This document shows, one piece after another, positions 3,054 through 10,835 of a stretch of DNA of 64,000 nucleotides. Origin of the DNA: an uncultured Candidatus Pelagibacter sp. (GTDB lineage Bacteria; Pseudomonadota; Alphaproteobacteria; Pelagibacterales; Pelagibacteraceae); NCBI RefSeq assembly GCF_943788075.1, contig NZ_CALSOW010000001.1, forward strand, positions 169,128-233,127, read 5' to 3'. The position numbers and the translations under genes were made by a program. Under the pieces are notes generated by a model. The model saw nothing but the letters and a program-made list of their open reading frames with translations, made no database searches and was not told where the DNA came from. Every line of letters begins with the position of its first letter. Within the stretch, counting starts at the first letter, position 1.

Positions 3054-4127
3054 CTATATTAATTTTTCATTTTCATAAACACAACATTTTTCAGCTGGAA
3101 TATGTAATTTTACATTGCTAGAAGGCACTTCAGTTTCTCTGTTAATTTTGGATTTAATAGTAAAATTTCCCATTTTAGCGGTTAAAAGTTTGTAGTTTCC
3201 AAGATCTTCAACTTTATCTACATCAACGTCTATTAAGTTTTCTTTTTGATTATCAGCAATCTTAATAAATTCAGATCTAACTCCTAATTTAATCTTTTTA
3301 TCTTTTAAGTTAGTTAAATTAGTATTCGTTTTAATTATTGTATCGTTAATCTTAACGCTATCATTTGAAGATGCTTCGGTCTCAAACAAGTTCATTGCTG
3401 GTGAACCAATAAAGTATCCTACAAAAGTAGTATTAGGTCTCTCAAATAACTCTTTTGGGGTTCCAGCTTGAACAACCTCACCTTCACTCATAACTATAAT
3501 GTTATCAGCAAAAGTCATTGCTTCATTTTGATCGTGAGTTACATAAACTAATGTTGTTTTAAACTCTTCATTTATCTCTTTAAGTTTTCTTCTTAATCTA
3601 AATTTTAAATCAGGATCAATAACAGTCAACGGTTCATCCATTAAAACAGCTGCCACATCTTCTCTAACAAGTCCTCTGCCAAGAGATATTAATTGTTTTT
3701 GATCAGCTGTAAGTTTTCTTGCAGGTGAATTTAAAAAAGATTGTAAATTTAAAGTATCTGCAACAGATTTAACTCTTTCGTCAATTTTACTCTGAGAAAA
3801 ATCTCTACATTTTAATGGAAAAGCTAAATTCTCATAAACACTCATTGTGTTATAAATTACTGGAAATTGGAATACTTGAGCTATGTTTCTACTTTCTGTT
3901 TTAAGATCAGTTACATCTTTATCATCAAACAATATATTACCAGCTGAAGGTCTAACTAAACCTGACACAATATTTAACATTGTTGTTTTTCCACAGCCTG
4001 ATGGACCTAAAATTGCATATCTTTTTCCATTTTCCCAAGTCATAGAAAATGGGTTCAGTGCATAAACAGGGTTTGGATCGTTTGGATTATAGGAATGAGA
4101 AATATTATTTAAATCAATTTTAGACAT
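3054..4127 (-). CDS. ABC importer ATPase, second subunit (MalK/UgpC/GlpT-like), atypical signature motif
   Basis: A 357-residue ATPase that energises carbohydrate- or polyol-type ABC import. The Walker A motif GPSGCGKTT, Q-loop, Walker B VLMDEP and the H-loop VYVTHDQ are intact, but the ABC signature is LTADQKQ where family members have LSGGQ. A C-terminal regulatory beta domain follows from about residue 235. I start it at the ATG at 4127, which has GGAGGATC seven bases before it, and not at the ATG twelve bases upstream. It overlaps the preceding ATPase gene by 8 bases and ends the operon. Two unlike ATPases plus two permeases match the rhizobial glycerol GlpSTPQV arrangement. Confidence 0.9.
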   Translation of the reverse strand: MSKIDLNNISHSYNPNDPNPVYALNPFSMTWENGKRYAILGPSGCGKTTMLNIVSGLVRPSAGNILFDDKDVTDLKTESRNIAQVFQFPVIYNTMSVYENLAFPLKCRDFSQSKIDERVKSVADTLNLQSFLNSPARKLTADQKQLISLGRGLVREDVAAVLMDEPLTVIDPDLKFRLRRKLKEINEEFKTTLVYVTHDQNEAMTFADNIIVMSEGEVVQAGTPKELFERPNTTFVGYFIGSPAMNLFETEASSNDSVKINDTIIKTNTNLTNLKDKKIKLGVRSEFIKIADNQKENLIDVDVDKVEDLGNYKLLTAKMGNFTIKSKINRETEVPSSNVKLHIPAEKCCVYENEKLI

Positions 4128-5199
4128 ACGATCCTCCAAAAGGTGATGAGGCTAAGATTCCGCTCTCATTAAAAGCATAAACTTTCGTTATATTAAAACT
4201 AATTTTTACTTTATCATGAATATTAAAATTCATAACCTCTTCTATTGAAGTAATGAGTTTAGTATCACCTCTTGTAAGGTGAAGTAAAGTTTCAGAACCA
4301 CTAATCTCAGCTAGCTCTACTTCAAATTCAAAACCTTTTTCGTTCAATTCAATATCAGAAGCTCTAACACCTAAATTAAAATTATTATCCTTTAAATTAG
4401 ATAAATGATTGGGAATATCTATCTCTATTCCTTCAAACTTAATTTTATTAGACTCTATATTTGCTGTTAAAATATTCATTGGGGGATCATTAGAAATTTC
4501 TGCAACTTTTAGTGTCTTTGGATTTTCAAAAATTTCTTTTGCAGGACCAACTTGCAGAACCTTTCCTTCATCAAGGACAATAACTTCACCATTAAGCTCC
4601 ATGGCTTCTCTTGGATCGGTTGTTGAAAATATTACTATGCTCTCTTCAGATAAGCCTTGAGAAAAAATATTTTTAAATTCTTCTCTTAATTGTTCTCTTA
4701 ATTTGTAATCTAAATTAACCAAAGGTTCATCTAACAATAAAATCTTTGCATTCTTCACTAAAGATCTTGCTAAAGAAACTCTTTGCTGTTGACCGCCAGA
4801 TAATTCTTGAATTTTTCTTTTTTCATAGCCTTCCAAACCAACTGATTTAAGCGATTTTAAAACTACATCATTTATTTCTTGATTGTCTACTTTCCTTTGT
4901 TTTAGCGGAAAAGCAACGTTCTCAAAAACATTAAGATGAGGATAATTAATAAATTGTTGATAAACCATAGCCACATTTCTCTCCCAGACTGGCACCTTCA
5001 AGAAATCTTTATCTTCAAATTGAATTGCACCTTTATCAGGGGTCAATAATCCAGCTATAGTTTTTAATAATGTAGTTTTGCCTGATAAAGTTCTTCCAAG
5101 AATGGTGTAAATATTTCCTTTTTTGAAATTAAAAGACACTTCATTTAAATGAAACTGTTCATCAGGTTTGTACAATAAATTTTCAGCAATTAAATTCAT
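4120..5199 (-). CDS. ABC importer ATPase, first subunit (GlpS-like), lacking the H-loop histidine
   Basis: A 359-residue ATPase of the MalK/UgpC class with a C-terminal regulatory domain. It has a complete signature LSGGQQQR, Walker B ILLLDEP and Q-loop VYQQ, but its Walker A is GRTLSGKTT and the switch region reads VIFSTTDP, with threonine where the catalytic H-loop histidine normally stands. The downstream ATPase has the opposite defect. The two therefore most likely work as an obligate heterodimer with one good and one weak ATP site. Stop and start codons overlap with the upstream permease at 5199. Confidence 0.9.
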   Translation of the reverse strand: MNLIAENLLYKPDEQFHLNEVSFNFKKGNIYTILGRTLSGKTTLLKTIAGLLTPDKGAIQFEDKDFLKVPVWERNVAMVYQQFINYPHLNVFENVAFPLKQRKVDNQEINDVVLKSLKSVGLEGYEKRKIQELSGGQQQRVSLARSLVKNAKILLLDEPLVNLDYKLREQLREEFKNIFSQGLSEESIVIFSTTDPREAMELNGEVIVLDEGKVLQVGPAKEIFENPKTLKVAEISNDPPMNILTANIESNKIKFEGIEIDIPNHLSNLKDNNFNLGVRASDIELNEKGFEFEVELAEISGSETLLHLTRGDTKLITSIEEVMNFNIHDKVKISFNITKVYAFNESGILASSPFGGSYV

Positions 5200-6047
5200 T
5201 ATTTAATAGCTCCTGACAAATTACCTTTTGATAAATATCTTTCCACGATAAACGCTACAATTATTAATGGTGCCACTGATACTAAGGCGGAGGCGGACAA
5301 GCTCCACCAAGGTGTAATGGATGAGTTTAAAGCTACAATTTTAACTGGCAATAACTGCACTTCGGTAAAAGTCAAAATGAATGCAAAGAAAAAATCAATC
5401 CAACCAAAAATTATACAAAACATTCCGGCAACAATTAAACCTGGAACTGAATTAGGCAAGACTACTTTAAAAAATGCCTGATAAGGATTACATCCATCAA
5501 TCAATGCTGTTTCATCAATCTCCCTTGGAACTTTATTAAAAAAATCAACCATAATCCAAACTGCTATTGGCATTAACAAAACAATATAAACAACTATTAA
5601 TCCAATCAAACTATCTAGTAAATTAATTGCACCTAAAAATAAAAAGAAAGGAATTGATAAAACTATCGGCGGCATAATTCTTTGAGAAATAAAGAAGAAT
5701 GTAATATCATTATTTTTTACAAAACCAGCTTTAAATGTAAATCTAGAAAGTGCATAAGCTGATAAAGTTCCAAGCACTATACTAATAAGACTTGCTGTAC
5801 ATGTTACAAATAAACTATTAAAGTAAGGCTCAATTATATCAACTCCACCATTTGCTGGAGATTTAATTAACACCTTCCAACCTTCTAATTTTGGTTCAAA
5901 ATCAACCCAAGGAATATATGTGGCACCACCATTTACAGAATTAAAATCCTTAAAAGAAGTTGTAAGCGCCCAAAGAAAAGGTGCTACTACAAAAACTGTC
6001 CAAATGGTTATGAAAGAGTATTTTAAAAATTTATATAATTTTCCCAT
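5199..6047 (-). CDS. ABC importer inner-membrane permease (MalG/UgpE/GlpQ type)
   Basis: A 282-residue protein with six predicted membrane helices. Near residues 190-215 it carries the EAA loop (DETALIDGCNPYQAFFKVVLP), the cytoplasmic coupling helix of carbohydrate-type (CUT1) permeases. It forms the translocation channel with the permease encoded just upstream, from which it is separated by two bases, and it overlaps the next ATPase gene by one base. Substrate specificity is set by the binding protein and remains unknown. Confidence 0.93.
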   Translation of the reverse strand: MGKLYKFLKYSFITIWTVFVVAPFLWALTTSFKDFNSVNGGATYIPWVDFEPKLEGWKVLIKSPANGGVDIIEPYFNSLFVTCTASLISIVLGTLSAYALSRFTFKAGFVKNNDITFFFISQRIMPPIVLSIPFFLFLGAINLLDSLIGLIVVYIVLLMPIAVWIMVDFFNKVPREIDETALIDGCNPYQAFFKVVLPNSVPGLIVAGMFCIIFGWIDFFFAFILTFTEVQLLPVKIVALNSSITPWWSLSASALVSVAPLIIVAFIVERYLSKGNLSGAIK

Positions 6048-6049
6048 GT

Positions 6050-6910
6050 CTAATCTTTTAGTAATAATTTAGTTAATCCTTTTGCGATAAAAGTTAAGCT
6101 TATGATCATTATAATTAAATAAGTGAATGACATTGAGGCCGCATAACCCATCTGGAATTCTCTTAATCCCTTGATAAAGATATAAAAACTAGATGTTTCA
6201 GTCGAGGTACCTGGACCCCCAGAGGTTAATACATAAACTGTATCCATTATCTTTGAAGCTTCAATTAATCTAATAATGATAGCTCCAATAGAAATTGGTG
6301 CCATTAAAGGAAATGTTACATAAATAAATTTTCTGATAGGACTTGCTCCATCAATAGCGGCTGCTAAGAATGGTTCTTTTGGAAGTGATAAAAGACCCGC
6401 TAATAACAACAAAAACATAAACGGTGTCCACTGCCAAACCTCTACAATAATTACTGTAATTTTTGCAAGAGTAGGGTCCGTAAGCCACTTGGGTGACATA
6501 CCAAAATTTGACAAAATATCATTAACTGGACCTAAAGATTCATGAAAAAATGTTCTCCAAATTACTGTCATGATAACTGGTGTCGTCATCATTGGTATTA
6601 AAAATAAAACTCTGAAAAATCTTTGAAACTTAATATCCTTCCAGACCATATGTGCGAGTGCAAATCCAATTACATATTGAAGGATAACTGTCGTAACAGA
6701 TAAAAAACTTAATCTAAAAAATGATTGCCAAAATCTAGGATCATCAGTGAATAATCTAACGTAGTTCTCAAGACCAATAAAATTTAAACCATTGTAACTA
6801 TTCCAACCTGATAAACTCAACCGAACAACAAAGATTATTGGAAATATTAATATTCCTATAAGTACAAATAGCCCTGGGAATAAAAAAACATATTTGTGTT
6901 TAAAATTCAT
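6050..6910 (-). CDS. ABC importer inner-membrane permease (MalF/UgpA/GlpP type)
   Basis: A 286-residue permease with about six membrane segments and the EAA-type coupling motif EPFLAAAIDGASPIRKFIYV near residue 190. It pairs with the second permease. It follows the binding-protein gene after a 71-base gap that contains a strong hairpin, a common way to keep membrane subunits below the binding protein. The short N-terminus without a periplasmic insertion is like UgpA/GlpP and unlike E. coli MalF. Confidence 0.93.
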   Translation of the reverse strand: MNFKHKYVFLFPGLFVLIGILIFPIIFVVRLSLSGWNSYNGLNFIGLENYVRLFTDDPRFWQSFFRLSFLSVTTVILQYVIGFALAHMVWKDIKFQRFFRVLFLIPMMTTPVIMTVIWRTFFHESLGPVNDILSNFGMSPKWLTDPTLAKITVIIVEVWQWTPFMFLLLLAGLLSLPKEPFLAAAIDGASPIRKFIYVTFPLMAPISIGAIIIRLIEASKIMDTVYVLTSGGPGTSTETSSFYIFIKGLREFQMGYAASMSFTYLIIMIISLTFIAKGLTKLLLKD

Positions 6911-6981: not shown

Positions 6982-8520
6982 TTATAACTTGTTGTCTTCC
7001 ATTTTAACACCAACAGCGTAGTCTTCTTGAACGTTCTTCTTACCTACTCTGCTAACAATTGCTTCCCACTCTTTAGCAACTTCATCTAAAGCTTCTTGTG
7101 GAGATAATTGTCCCGCAAGCGCTTTTGAAGTTCCAGTAGCAACTGCACTAGTGAACTCAAACACACCTCTAACTCTTAAAGGGAAAACTCTATTTTTACT
7201 TTTTTCCATATCTTTAAGTGTCTTAGTGTAACTATTAGCGATGTCTGCATCCCAACCCATAGTATTAATATAAAGTTGTGGATCGAAATCAGAGTTTTTA
7301 AATGGATTAACCCCAAAATTACCAATTGCTAAGTCAGCCTGGTGATTTGCTCCGTTAGAAAAGAAACAAAGATAATCAAACGCCATCTCTTGCACTTTAC
7401 TTTTCTTAGCAACACCTACAGCCCAACCCCACACAATGTATGGTGCTTGGTTATATTGGTTTTCCCATTTATTAGATACTCTGTTCCAAACTTTATCAGA
7501 ACCTGGAAGAGGAGCCGCACCTACTTTGTTTTTAATAGGACTATCATCTTGCATCGCTGCGATGAAAGCATCATCCCATGAAAAACTAAATAGTGTTTGA
7601 CCACCACCAAATGATCCAATTTCATCACCTAGTCCAAAGTTAATTCCTCCTGGAGGAACATACTTAGTAGCCTCTACCCAATCAGTCAAAGCTTCAACAA
7701 ATCCTGGATTGTTAATATTTGGCTTCATAGTTTCTAAATCAAAAAAGAAACCACCTGGAGTTCTTGGATTTTTAGCGTACGCAACAGATCTACTGAAAAA
7801 AGCTGCAAACATTAAGTCGTCTTTTTTCATTACTTCAGCTGAACCGTATTCTTTTTCTCCATCTCCATCCCAATCCCAACCGTTAAAGTATTTGGCCATT
7901 TCGCCATATTCTTTCCAAGTTGTAGGAACTTTTAAAGTTTTACCAGTATCTGCTTTATATTTTTTTTGCATTTCAGGATTATCTATTACGTCTTTTCTGT
8001 ATTTTAGATAATGTCTGTCACCGTCAACTGGGTATTGATACATAGTTCCATCCCAAGAAGAAACACCTACGTGAGATTTGGTTACGTCTTTCATCTCTGT
8101 AGAGTTCATGTACTTTTTAGGAACTGGCGCTAGATATTGTCTCCAGTCATTAATAAAGTTAGAAAAACCAAATACGATATCGTATGGAGCTTGACCAGCT
8201 TTAAAAGGAACCATAGCTTTTGCATACAAATCACCAGCAGGTGTGTGTGTTACATCAACTTTTGCTCCAGTTAACTTAGCAAACTGTTCAGCATGTAGAG
8301 CCGTTGGTTGTCCAATTACTGGAACAGCGTGTGTATTTATTTTAAGAGTTTTTCCTTTGTAATTTTTCTTAGAAATTTTTTCATAAGAACAATCACCAGC
8401 AATATCTCCAGTAGCTTTGATATGTGGAAATTGATCACTCCACTTATCAGCATAAGCCATAGGGCTGAATATCAAAACACTTGATATCGCAGCACTTAGG
8501 CAAGTTTTTATTATTTTCAT
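6982..8520 (-). CDS. ABC importer extracellular solute-binding protein (CUT1/GlpV-like)
   Basis: A 512-residue periplasmic binding protein with a Sec signal peptide (Lys near the start, hydrophobic core to about residue 20, cleavage after AYA). Features such as DVTHTPAGDLYAKAMVPF, W-rich loops and the late YIVWGWAVGVAKKS segment fit large CUT1-type binding proteins for sugars, glycerol or other polyols. Its 21-base distance from the alcohol dehydrogenase gene and the strong GGGGAGAG ribosome-binding site make it the second gene of that operon. I infer that the ligand is an alcohol or polyol oxidised by the adjacent enzyme; the sequence alone does not prove it. Confidence 0.9.
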   Translation of the reverse strand: MKIIKTCLSAAISSVLIFSPMAYADKWSDQFPHIKATGDIAGDCSYEKISKKNYKGKTLKINTHAVPVIGQPTALHAEQFAKLTGAKVDVTHTPAGDLYAKAMVPFKAGQAPYDIVFGFSNFINDWRQYLAPVPKKYMNSTEMKDVTKSHVGVSSWDGTMYQYPVDGDRHYLKYRKDVIDNPEMQKKYKADTGKTLKVPTTWKEYGEMAKYFNGWDWDGDGEKEYGSAEVMKKDDLMFAAFFSRSVAYAKNPRTPGGFFFDLETMKPNINNPGFVEALTDWVEATKYVPPGGINFGLGDEIGSFGGGQTLFSFSWDDAFIAAMQDDSPIKNKVGAAPLPGSDKVWNRVSNKWENQYNQAPYIVWGWAVGVAKKSKVQEMAFDYLCFFSNGANHQADLAIGNFGVNPFKNSDFDPQLYINTMGWDADIANSYTKTLKDMEKSKNRVFPLRVRGVFEFTSAVATGTSKALAGQLSPQEALDEVAKEWEAIVSRVGKKNVQEDYAVGVKMEDNKL

Positions 8521-8541: not shown

Positions 8542-9603
8542 TTACGGAACTAAAACAGCTCGTCCCTTAACTTTGCCTTCGTTAAGTTCATGAAGCGCTC
8601 TATTAGCATCGCCTAATTTATATTCTTGCATGGACAACTTAACTAAACCTTTGTTAGCTAATTCCATAAGCTCATATAACTCAGACCACGTTCCCACTAA
8701 ATTTCCTATTATGTTTTTTTCTGAAATAATTACATCAACAGCCAAGATTTTGATTTCCTCACCATAGCCAACGATATAATAAAATCCACCACCTGAAGTC
8801 ATATCAAGACCCATCTTTGTAGAGCCATGTTCACCAACAAAATCAATTACAGCTTCAGCACCTTTACCTTTGGTAAGTTCTAAAACTCTTTCAACTTCAT
8901 TGCCATCAATTAAAACACCTTCATCACCTCCTAAAGGCATTGCATGATCTAATGCAGCTTTAGATTTTTCAACAATAATAATATTTGCAGCACACATTGC
9001 TCTCAAACATTGAATTGCAATATGACCTAATCCACCAGCACCTATGATTACACAGTTTTGACCTGGTAATAAATGTCTAGTTGCTTTTTTAACAACCCTA
9101 TACGCTGTTAATCCAGCATCTGAAAAAGGGGCCACATCCTTAGGAGCTAACACTGTTGGAAGCTTAATTAAGTTTCTAACACTTGTTTTAAGTAATTCTG
9201 CATAACCACCCTCTTTAATATTAAGTCCTGGAAACGACCCTTCATCAGCATGTTGATCTAAACCTCTTCTGCAGTTTAAACAAGTTCCATCTGTTCCAGA
9301 AATAATTGGGTGCAAAATTACTGGGTCACCTTTTTTAAATCCTGTTACATCTTTTCCAACTTCCTCAACCCAACCTGCATTTTCATGGCCCATTACCATT
9401 GGTAATAAATCTCCTTTTGGATCTTGAATGTGTTTCCATGCTCCCTCAACAATGTGTAAATCAGTTCTGCATACTCCCGCAGCACCTATTTTAACAATTA
9501 CATCTGATGATTTTTCTAACTTTGGGTCAGGCATTTCTTGTTCTGTTACCCATACTTTTTCTTTCATTTCCGGGTCATACTTATGTAAAACTTGTGCTTT
9601 CAT
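8542..9603 (-). CDS. Zinc-dependent NAD(P) alcohol dehydrogenase
   Basis: A 353-residue medium-chain dehydrogenase/reductase that oxidises an alcohol to the aldehyde or ketone. The GroES-like domain has VCRTD (catalytic-zinc cysteine), GHENAGWVEEVG (zinc histidine and glutamate) and the Rossmann motif GAGGLGHIAIQ near residue 190. The structural-zinc loop is unusual: only CLNC remains of the four cysteines, with His and Asp near the other positions. First gene of the ABC importer operon, preceded by AAGGAGAGAG, and divergent from an AcoR-like regulator. Such regulators often control alcohol or acetoin oxidation, which supports the pairing. Substrate unknown. Confidence 0.93.
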   Translation of the reverse strand: MKAQVLHKYDPEMKEKVWVTEQEMPDPKLEKSSDVIVKIGAAGVCRTDLHIVEGAWKHIQDPKGDLLPMVMGHENAGWVEEVGKDVTGFKKGDPVILHPIISGTDGTCLNCRRGLDQHADEGSFPGLNIKEGGYAELLKTSVRNLIKLPTVLAPKDVAPFSDAGLTAYRVVKKATRHLLPGQNCVIIGAGGLGHIAIQCLRAMCAANIIIVEKSKAALDHAMPLGGDEGVLIDGNEVERVLELTKGKGAEAVIDFVGEHGSTKMGLDMTSGGGFYYIVGYGEEIKILAVDVIISEKNIIGNLVGTWSELYELMELANKGLVKLSMQEYKLGDANRALHELNEGKVKGRAVLVP

Positions 9604-9746: not shown

Positions 9747-10835
9747 ATGACAAATTTAGCATTGGTCAATAAAGAGTATAAAAATATTCTTAAAAAGAGA
9801 GGAATGAACTCACATCAAATGAATGGGGACATCTCTGATAGCTGGTCAAGATGTATAGCTGAAGGTTTGAATCCATTTAACAGTCCGAAACAAAGTGTAA
9901 TCTCTTCAACTGAACTAAAACAAATCAAAGAGCAAAATGTATCTCTCAGAAAAATAGTTATTCCTGAAATAGAACTTTTATATTCTCAAATTGCTGGAAC
10001 AAATTTTATGGTTGCTTATTCGGATGATAAAGGTTTGGTTTTAGACACAATTTACGACAAGACCTGTCTGCAAACAGATGTGGGGAAATCAGTAATACCT
10101 GGTTCTATATGGGCAGAAAAAATTTGTGGTACTAACGGCTTAGGATTGTCAGTTGAACTTAAAAAGCCCACTATAGTATCAGGTAAAGAACATTTCTTTG
10201 TTGCTCATGAAAAAATATCATGTTTTGCAAGTCCTATAATAAATTATGATGGCAAAACAATTGGTATAATTGATGCTTCAACAGACTCAAAATCAAGAGA
10301 GCAACATACATTAGCTTTAGTTAAATTAGCAACCAGAAGTATTGAAACAAAATTATTTATTAAAAAATTTTCTAACGAATTAATTCTATCCTTTCATCCA
10401 AGACAAGAATATTTGACGACAACAAGCGTTGGGATGTTGGCAATTAATGGTGATGGTGTAATTGTAGGAGCAAATAGAAATGCCAAAATCATGCTTAATG
10501 GTTTAGTTGATTTGAAAAATGAAAATTTTAATAACATTTTTACAAATTCATTTTCATCAATAGCGGCTGACATATTAAACAATAAAATACTAAAAATAAC
10601 AGATCATCTAGGATCATCAGTTTTTGTGATCAAAAGTCAGAACTTTAGTGAAAATAAAGTTCTAGATAGCAATAAAACTGAAAAAACCTATTCATGTAAA
10701 AATTGCAAAGATACAAAAATTAAAAGAGAAAAATGTATATTAATTAGATCAACTTTTTTAGAAACAAATAATATTTCTGTTGCTTCTAGAAAACTAGGTG
10801 TTTCTAGAACTACAATTTACAAACATTTAAGATAG
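9747..10835 (+). CDS. AcoR-like transcriptional regulator: GAF sensor and Fis-type HTH, no AAA+ domain
   Basis: A 362-residue protein built like the ends of AcoR activators. The N-terminal 60 residues carry the SWSRCIAEGLNP signature, a GAF sensor follows (about 70-205, with GSIWAEKICGTNGLG and a HEKISCFASPI segment), then a PAS-like region (about 225-300) and a C-terminal Fis-type helix-turn-helix (NNISVASRKLGVSRTTIYKHLR). The sigma-54-contacting ATPase domain normally between sensor and HTH is absent, as expected where sigma-54 is not present. A cysteine cluster CKNCKDTKIKREKC precedes the HTH. Divergent from the alcohol dehydrogenase operon, which it probably controls. No clear Shine-Dalgarno precedes the ATG. 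Confidence 0.82.
   Translation: MTNLALVNKEYKNILKKRGMNSHQMNGDISDSWSRCIAEGLNPFNSPKQSVISSTELKQIKEQNVSLRKIVIPEIELLYSQIAGTNFMVAYSDDKGLVLDTIYDKTCLQTDVGKSVIPGSIWAEKICGTNGLGLSVELKKPTIVSGKEHFFVAHEKISCFASPIINYDGKTIGIIDASTDSKSREQHTLALVKLATRSIETKLFIKKFSNELILSFHPRQEYLTTTSVGMLAINGDGVIVGANRNAKIMLNGLVDLKNENFNNIFTNSFSSIAADILNNKILKITDHLGSSVFVIKSQNFSENKVLDSNKTEKTYSCKNCKDTKIKREKCILIRSTFLETNNISVASRKLGVSRTTIYKHLR

Follow-up and report, generated by a model that had tools for sequence, protein, structure and literature searches.

An asymmetric ATPase pair shared across a family of type I ABC importers, seen in an alcohol-dehydrogenase-linked operon of SAR11

Can a type I ABC importer run with one of its two ATP sites naturally degenerate? 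The question is raised by the window analysed here, a stretch of 64,000 nucleotides from an uncultured Candidatus Pelagibacter sp. (SAR11), in which an importer operon encodes two adjacent MalK-family ATPases. An earlier note on this DNA had claimed that the two proteins have lost complementary motifs. We find that the asymmetry of this pair of type I importer ATPases is real, ancient and family-wide.

The importer operon lies on the minus strand and opens with a Zn-dependent NAD(P) alcohol dehydrogenase (8542–9603), identified by profile matches. It continues with an extracellular solute-binding protein of 512 residues (6982–8520), permease 1 of the UgpA/MalF type (6050–6910), permease 2 of the MalG/GlcU type (5199–6047), an S-type (GlpS-like) ATPase of 359 residues (4120–5199) and a T-type (GlpT-like) ATPase of 357 residues (3054–4127); a TRAP transporter comes after the T gene, downstream of the operon. 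Both permeases were assigned from profile matches. At E 0.001 neither Pfam nor NCBIfam gives a match for the binding protein, which is named through its orthologue. Each ATPase is an open reading frame that matches PF00005: S has a partial OB_MalK match, has the UgpC model as its best match and falls in the S clade, and T matches OB_MalK and falls in the T clade. The ATG at 4127, preceded by GGAGG, is a likelier start for T than the TTG at 4139. Divergent from the operon, on the plus strand, an open reading frame of 362 residues (9747–10835) encodes a GAF/HTH regulator, DhaR/AcoR-like in its profile matches and lacking the central ATPase domain; it consists of a GAF domain and an HTH end, and only the first part of DhaR is matched. 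Rhodobacterales operons carry full-length sigma-54-type regulators in the equivalent position, and the SAR11 regulator therefore seems to have lost its ATPase domain. Judged by the neighbouring genes, the substrate of the operon is suggested to be a small alcohol or polyol.

We used E. coli MalK as the residue ruler for all ATPases, by alignment, and compiled motif statistics from 146 unique S, 143 unique T and 86 other MalK/UgpC-type ATPases of the same and related genomes. The motif calls of the earlier note proved right letter by letter, in the reading frames and in the DNA: S keeps LSGGQ and has threonine for the H-loop histidine, and T keeps the histidine and has LTADQ. The S signature (4789–4803, minus strand, as for all motifs below) is LSGGQ in 146/146 S sequences. 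The S H-loop reads STTDP (4612–4626, preceded by Phe), with Thr194 (4618–4620) at the position of MalK His192. Across the 146 S sequences this residue is Thr or Ser and never His, and the replacement is itself conserved as [ASTN][TS][TS][ED]P.

S carries an additional lesion, absent from the earlier note. At the A-loop position, MalK Trp13, alignment places the non-aromatic Pro12 (5164–5166); Val or Pro stands here in 136 of the 146 S sequences and an aromatic residue in only one, whereas Phe, Tyr or Trp is present in nearly all of the 86 other ATPases. Five residues past the lost aromatic, at the position of MalK Val18, S has His17 (5149–5151). This histidine is shared by 127/146 S sequences (the rest have mostly Trp, Thr, Tyr or Gln) and occurs in none of the 143 T or 86 other sequences. 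In NBD structures MalK positions 13 and 18 both adjoin the adenine, and we infer that His17 takes over the adenine contact of the lost aromatic. The S Walker A, read from the DNA and the alignment, is GRTLSGKTT (5071–5097), with Leu in place of the second glycine (MalK Gly39), as in most S sequences, and the D-loop is off consensus (V/A-N-L-D, as VNLD or ANLD). S retains the Walker A Lys, the Q-loop Gln, the Mg-binding Asp of Walker B (LLLDE) and the catalytic glutamate, Glu158 (4726–4728), which is present in 146/146.

The T protein has the opposite set of intact parts. Its A-loop Tyr13 (4089–4091) is found in 142/143 T sequences and its H-loop His198 (3534–3536, in VTHDQ) in all 143; its Walker A is GPSGCGKTT and its Walker B LMDE, with the catalytic Glu (Glu165) retained. 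The D-loop is TVID (3615–3626) in 143/143, where the consensus is SNLD or SALD. The signature is LTADQ (3699–3713), and LSGGQ occurs in none of the 143. The replacement is conserved as L[TSG][AP]DxKQ, with Lys and Gln in 170/170 and Asp in 168/170. Among the 86 other MalK/UgpC-type ATPases, the H-loop His and an (L/M/I)SGG signature are almost always both present. That the replaced motifs are themselves conserved, in T and in S, argues against simple decay.

One nucleotide site is built from Walker A and B and the A-, Q- and H-loops of one NBD and the signature of the other (PMC7756269). The H-loop of S faces the signature of T, and both losses thus lie within one composite site, as had been proposed; the A-loop loss and the Gly39-to-Leu change of Walker A lie in the same site. 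The companion claim, that the other site keeps all motifs, stands for the A-loop Tyr, Walker A, Q-loop, Glu and His of T and for LSGGQ of S; the D-loops of both proteins, counted to neither site, depart from consensus. By the same geometry (PMC7756269), an S or a T homodimer would be lesioned in both sites, and only an S–T heterodimer is predicted to have one intact ATP site.

How widespread is the pattern? We sampled 80 T-type gene loci from named SAR11 genomes; the wider search took in 385 alphaproteobacterial and 299 Pseudomonadota genomes, plus plasmids. In the class search, T-protein matches formed a separate set: the limit was 1e-75, and all lay at 1e-97 or better save one truncated protein. 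S adjoins T in 167 of 170 loci with T, the other three being at contig ends, and the split of lesions is absolute in 148 distinct S/T pairs from SAR11, other Pseudomonadota and Streptomyces plasmids. The two losses therefore always co-occur in GlpS/GlpT-type pairs. Between the window and close relatives, dN is 0.035–0.054 and dS 0.9–1.1 for both genes, and dN/dS is about 0.03–0.06 in S and T, indicating purifying selection. This low dN relative to dS, with a pattern invariant across the unique S and T sequences, rules out chance or sequencing error. Moreover, S and T distances co-vary (Mantel r 0.875 over 64 diverged loci; 0/999 permutations as high). Correlated distances, purifying selection and joint presence on Streptomyces plasmids together mark the pair as a unit.

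The matching losses had also been read as a sign of a co-evolved heterodimer. Strict co-occurrence, the single shared site and the predicted restriction of an intact site to the heterodimer all favour the heterodimer part of that claim. The S and T clades, however, each arose once (support 98–100 for S and 100 for T, with the window proteins inside). Each lesion maps to one clade stem, so the many co-occurrences amount to one or two events and not to repeated coevolution. In deep trees S and T are each a single clade, but the trees support no particular relation between the two, nor to a second ATPase pair adjoining dihydroxyacetone kinase genes, and hence no order of loss follows. A placement of the two ATPases of that second pair as separate sisters of S and T was hinted at by FastTree (0.28 for S); it was gone in IQ-TREE and we rejected it.

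We propose that S and T together power a type I (MalFGK2/UgpC-like) importer as its ATPase subunits and would form an obligate S–T heterodimer. Site 1, in which the T signature faces the two Walker motifs and the A- and H-loops of S, would be degenerate: A-loop aromatic, H-loop His and LSGG signature would all be missing, and the Walker Lys, Q-loop Gln, Mg-binding Asp and catalytic Glu would be present. Site 2, in which the A-loop, Walker A and B and H-loop of T face LSGGQ of S, would be canonical. Each transport cycle would most likely consume one ATP, hydrolysed at site 2, and site 1 may hold a nucleotide as a structural or regulatory element, by analogy with proposals for degenerate exporter sites. 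We put the probability of this reading, an obligate heterodimer with a degenerate site 1 and hydrolysis most likely at site 2 only, at roughly 0.8. Some hydrolysis at site 1 is possible, because every S keeps the catalytic Glu. AlphaFold monomers of S and T from eight close relatives are of low confidence (mean pLDDT 60 and 56). The solved homologues among the PDB matches listed are canonical MalK-type proteins, with no GlpST-type pair among them, and a search for biochemistry of such a pair found none.

The strongest competitor is that both sites hydrolyse, a Thr/Ser H-loop and LTADxKQ being tolerated or compensated, so that the asymmetry is structural and two ATP are spent per cycle. The retention by S of its Walker A Lys, Q-loop Gln, Walker B Asp and catalytic Glu would suit such an enzyme, as would a conserved His (MalK position 18) that arises where the A-loop aromatic is lost. 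Yet three independent contacts to one nucleotide have changed together, a nearly invariant Asp replaces the signature glycine in T, and the reverse lesions are never seen in the other site; we consider hydrolysis at both sites unlikely. Much less probable still is that S and T homodimerise in different complexes or conditions and are adjacent merely through co-transcription. MalK-type ATPases are indeed usually homodimers, and some serve several transporters, but here either homodimer would have two defective sites, and the pairing of S with T is strict and their distances are correlated. Drift in a gene pair losing its function, which the small, AT-rich genomes of SAR11 and the several departures from consensus might suggest, we reject, given dN/dS values of about 0.03–0.06 and the conservation of the same replaced motifs in many families with large genomes and also in Streptomyces.

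The heterodimer with a single hydrolysing site can be extended into a bolder proposal, which we hold only tentatively and think somewhat more likely wrong than right. Site 1 would be no dead remnant but a rebuilt site, formed by the S His at MalK Val18 and the L[TS][AP]DxKQ of T, that holds or senses nucleotide without hydrolysis; an importer that spent two ATP would thereby have become one that spends a single ATP. On this view the ATPase module would have moved from one permease family to another, and in one case it would have taken the place of a canonical homodimer on orthologous permeases or given way to one. Two loci bear on the exchange. L170 and L171 combine a window-type binding protein (50–54% identity) and permeases (56–61%) with a single canonical MalK-like ATPase, and L170 also shares the dehydrogenase of the window operon (59%). 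That single ATPase has MSGGQ, VTHDQ and a Phe in the A-loop, and is 44–45% identical to MalK. In the permease tree the S/T-driven set (support 97) is sister to the canonical set (94), both inside one group (100) that contains the window permeases and stands apart from the Glp permeases (100). The ATPase module was thus exchanged at least once, in one direction or the other.

The alcohol-dehydrogenase operon with S and T is also found on plasmids. It is present on two Rhodobacterales plasmids (Ponticoccus and Tabrizicola) and on two from Streptomyces. The Streptomyces operons (L157 on NZ_CP108071 and L289 on NZ_CP108841) include both ATPases and are about 50–60% identical to those of SAR11, which makes transfer between phyla likely on sequence grounds; the S/T motif split is conserved across it. 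An unannotated Ensifer plasmid record has permeases, S and T side by side, with a binding protein that spans the record start.

Is the window operon then the glycerol importer GlpSTPQV? The earlier comparison with GlpS/GlpT systems is right for the ATPase pair, but the operon is an alcohol-dehydrogenase-linked relative and not glycerol GlpSTPQV. As in the window, GlpSTPQV of rhizobia, Azospirillum and other Pseudomonadota has tandem S and T with the same lesions, two permeases and a binding protein, and its ATPases are 30–42% (S) and 46–55% (T) identical to those of the window. By contrast, true Glp loci, as in Azospirillum and on R. leguminosarum pRL9, carry glpD, glpK, DUF2160 and GlpV, whereas the window operon, with its alcohol dehydrogenase, lacks DUF2160; its permeases are only about 26–33% identical to GlpP/GlpQ. 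We sought GlpV, DUF2160 and glpD/glpK in the window-type operons L117–L119 and L157, and found no DUF2160, GlpD or GlpK and, as in the window, a binding protein that shares about 25% identity with GlpV. A related SAR11 genome has both systems, a GlpSTPQV locus (L130) and an alcohol-dehydrogenase operon (L117). L130 (G297:C1:801000-819000) is of the true GlpSTPQV type, with DUF2160, GlpK and a GlpV that shares 64% identity with the Azospirillum protein. On pRL9 of R. leguminosarum Ta6k (L159, 8000–10990), no genes are annotated over glpS-glpT-glpP and the reading frames of the ATPases are fragmented, reflecting either pseudogenes or sequencing errors. For the original GlpST papers the open-access literature gave only gene lists, and within that literature, which leaves out most subscription papers, we found no description of the GlpST motifs.

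Two further importers have tandem ATPases. Like the window operon, the DhaK-linked importers (for example L204, L285 and L286) have two adjacent MalK-type ATPases, two permeases and neighbours of C3 metabolism; unlike S and T, both their ATPases keep the H-loop His and the A-loop aromatic. Their signatures are LSGGD, LAGGD, LSSGD or LTSGD in ATPase 1 and LSGGE in ATPase 2. This type is found at L204 (G030), L205 (G028), L274–L282, L285 (an Agrobacterium vitis plasmid) and L286 (a Ruegeria conchae plasmid), and adjoins dihydroxyacetone kinase genes wherever the neighbours were read. A third type, at L206 (G028, next to an FGGY-type kinase) and L284 (G034), has in ATPase 1 the catalytic Glu changed to Asp, the H-loop His to Gln and LSNGQ, and in ATPase 2 the Q-loop Gln changed to Glu and a D-loop QLEP. 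Its asymmetry differs from that of S and T and is nearer to the exporter pattern.

How does the S/T pair compare with better known ABC systems? Importers of the MalFGK2/UgpC type resemble it in fold family, in the type of permease and in having a C-terminal OB domain, but MalK and UgpC form canonical homodimers in which both sites are intact. Such asymmetry had been described as less often noted in importers; that needs amending, since the importers RbsA and NupO are already known to have one degenerate ATP site, with the Walker A Lys lost (PMC11466899). These are type II importers whose two NBDs lie in a single chain, where the window has separate S and T chains. Among their lesions are loss of the Walker A Lys and, for NupO, loss of Walker B residues; S and T retain every one of these residues. 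Degenerate importer sites are thus known already, and it is in its lesion pattern that the S/T pair differs. Like S and T, the exporters TM287/288, BmrCD, TAP1/2 and ABCG5/G8 have complementary lesions in one composite site, with an altered signature. Degenerate exporter sites mostly have an altered signature and often an altered catalytic Glu (PMC7756269). In Pdr5, activity is reported to be lost when consensus residues are put back into the degenerate site (PMC7756269). In the S/T pair the altered T signature faces the altered A-loop, Walker A and H-loop of S. Loss of the catalytic Glu, the commonest Walker B change in degenerate exporter sites though not a universal one, is absent here, and ABCG5/G8, in which the Walker A Lys is changed rather than the Glu, is a precedent for another pattern; S and T keep both Glu and Lys, and S loses the A-loop aromatic and the H-loop His.

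How many ATP a type I importer spends per cycle, one or two, and whether it needs both sites to work, are questions debated chiefly on the basis of engineered mutants of MalK. A MalFGK2 complex engineered to contain one His192-mutant MalK is reportedly severely impaired; if that is correct, the natural GlpST case would be the more telling. Here a widespread type I importer family would run with one site naturally degenerate, and so tests the need for two working sites. The orthologous permeases driven by a canonical homodimer at L170 and L171 provide a matched natural comparison. SAR11 cells are among the ocean's most abundant, and the finding would bear on their energy economy as well as on the uptake of glycerol by many bacteria in soil.
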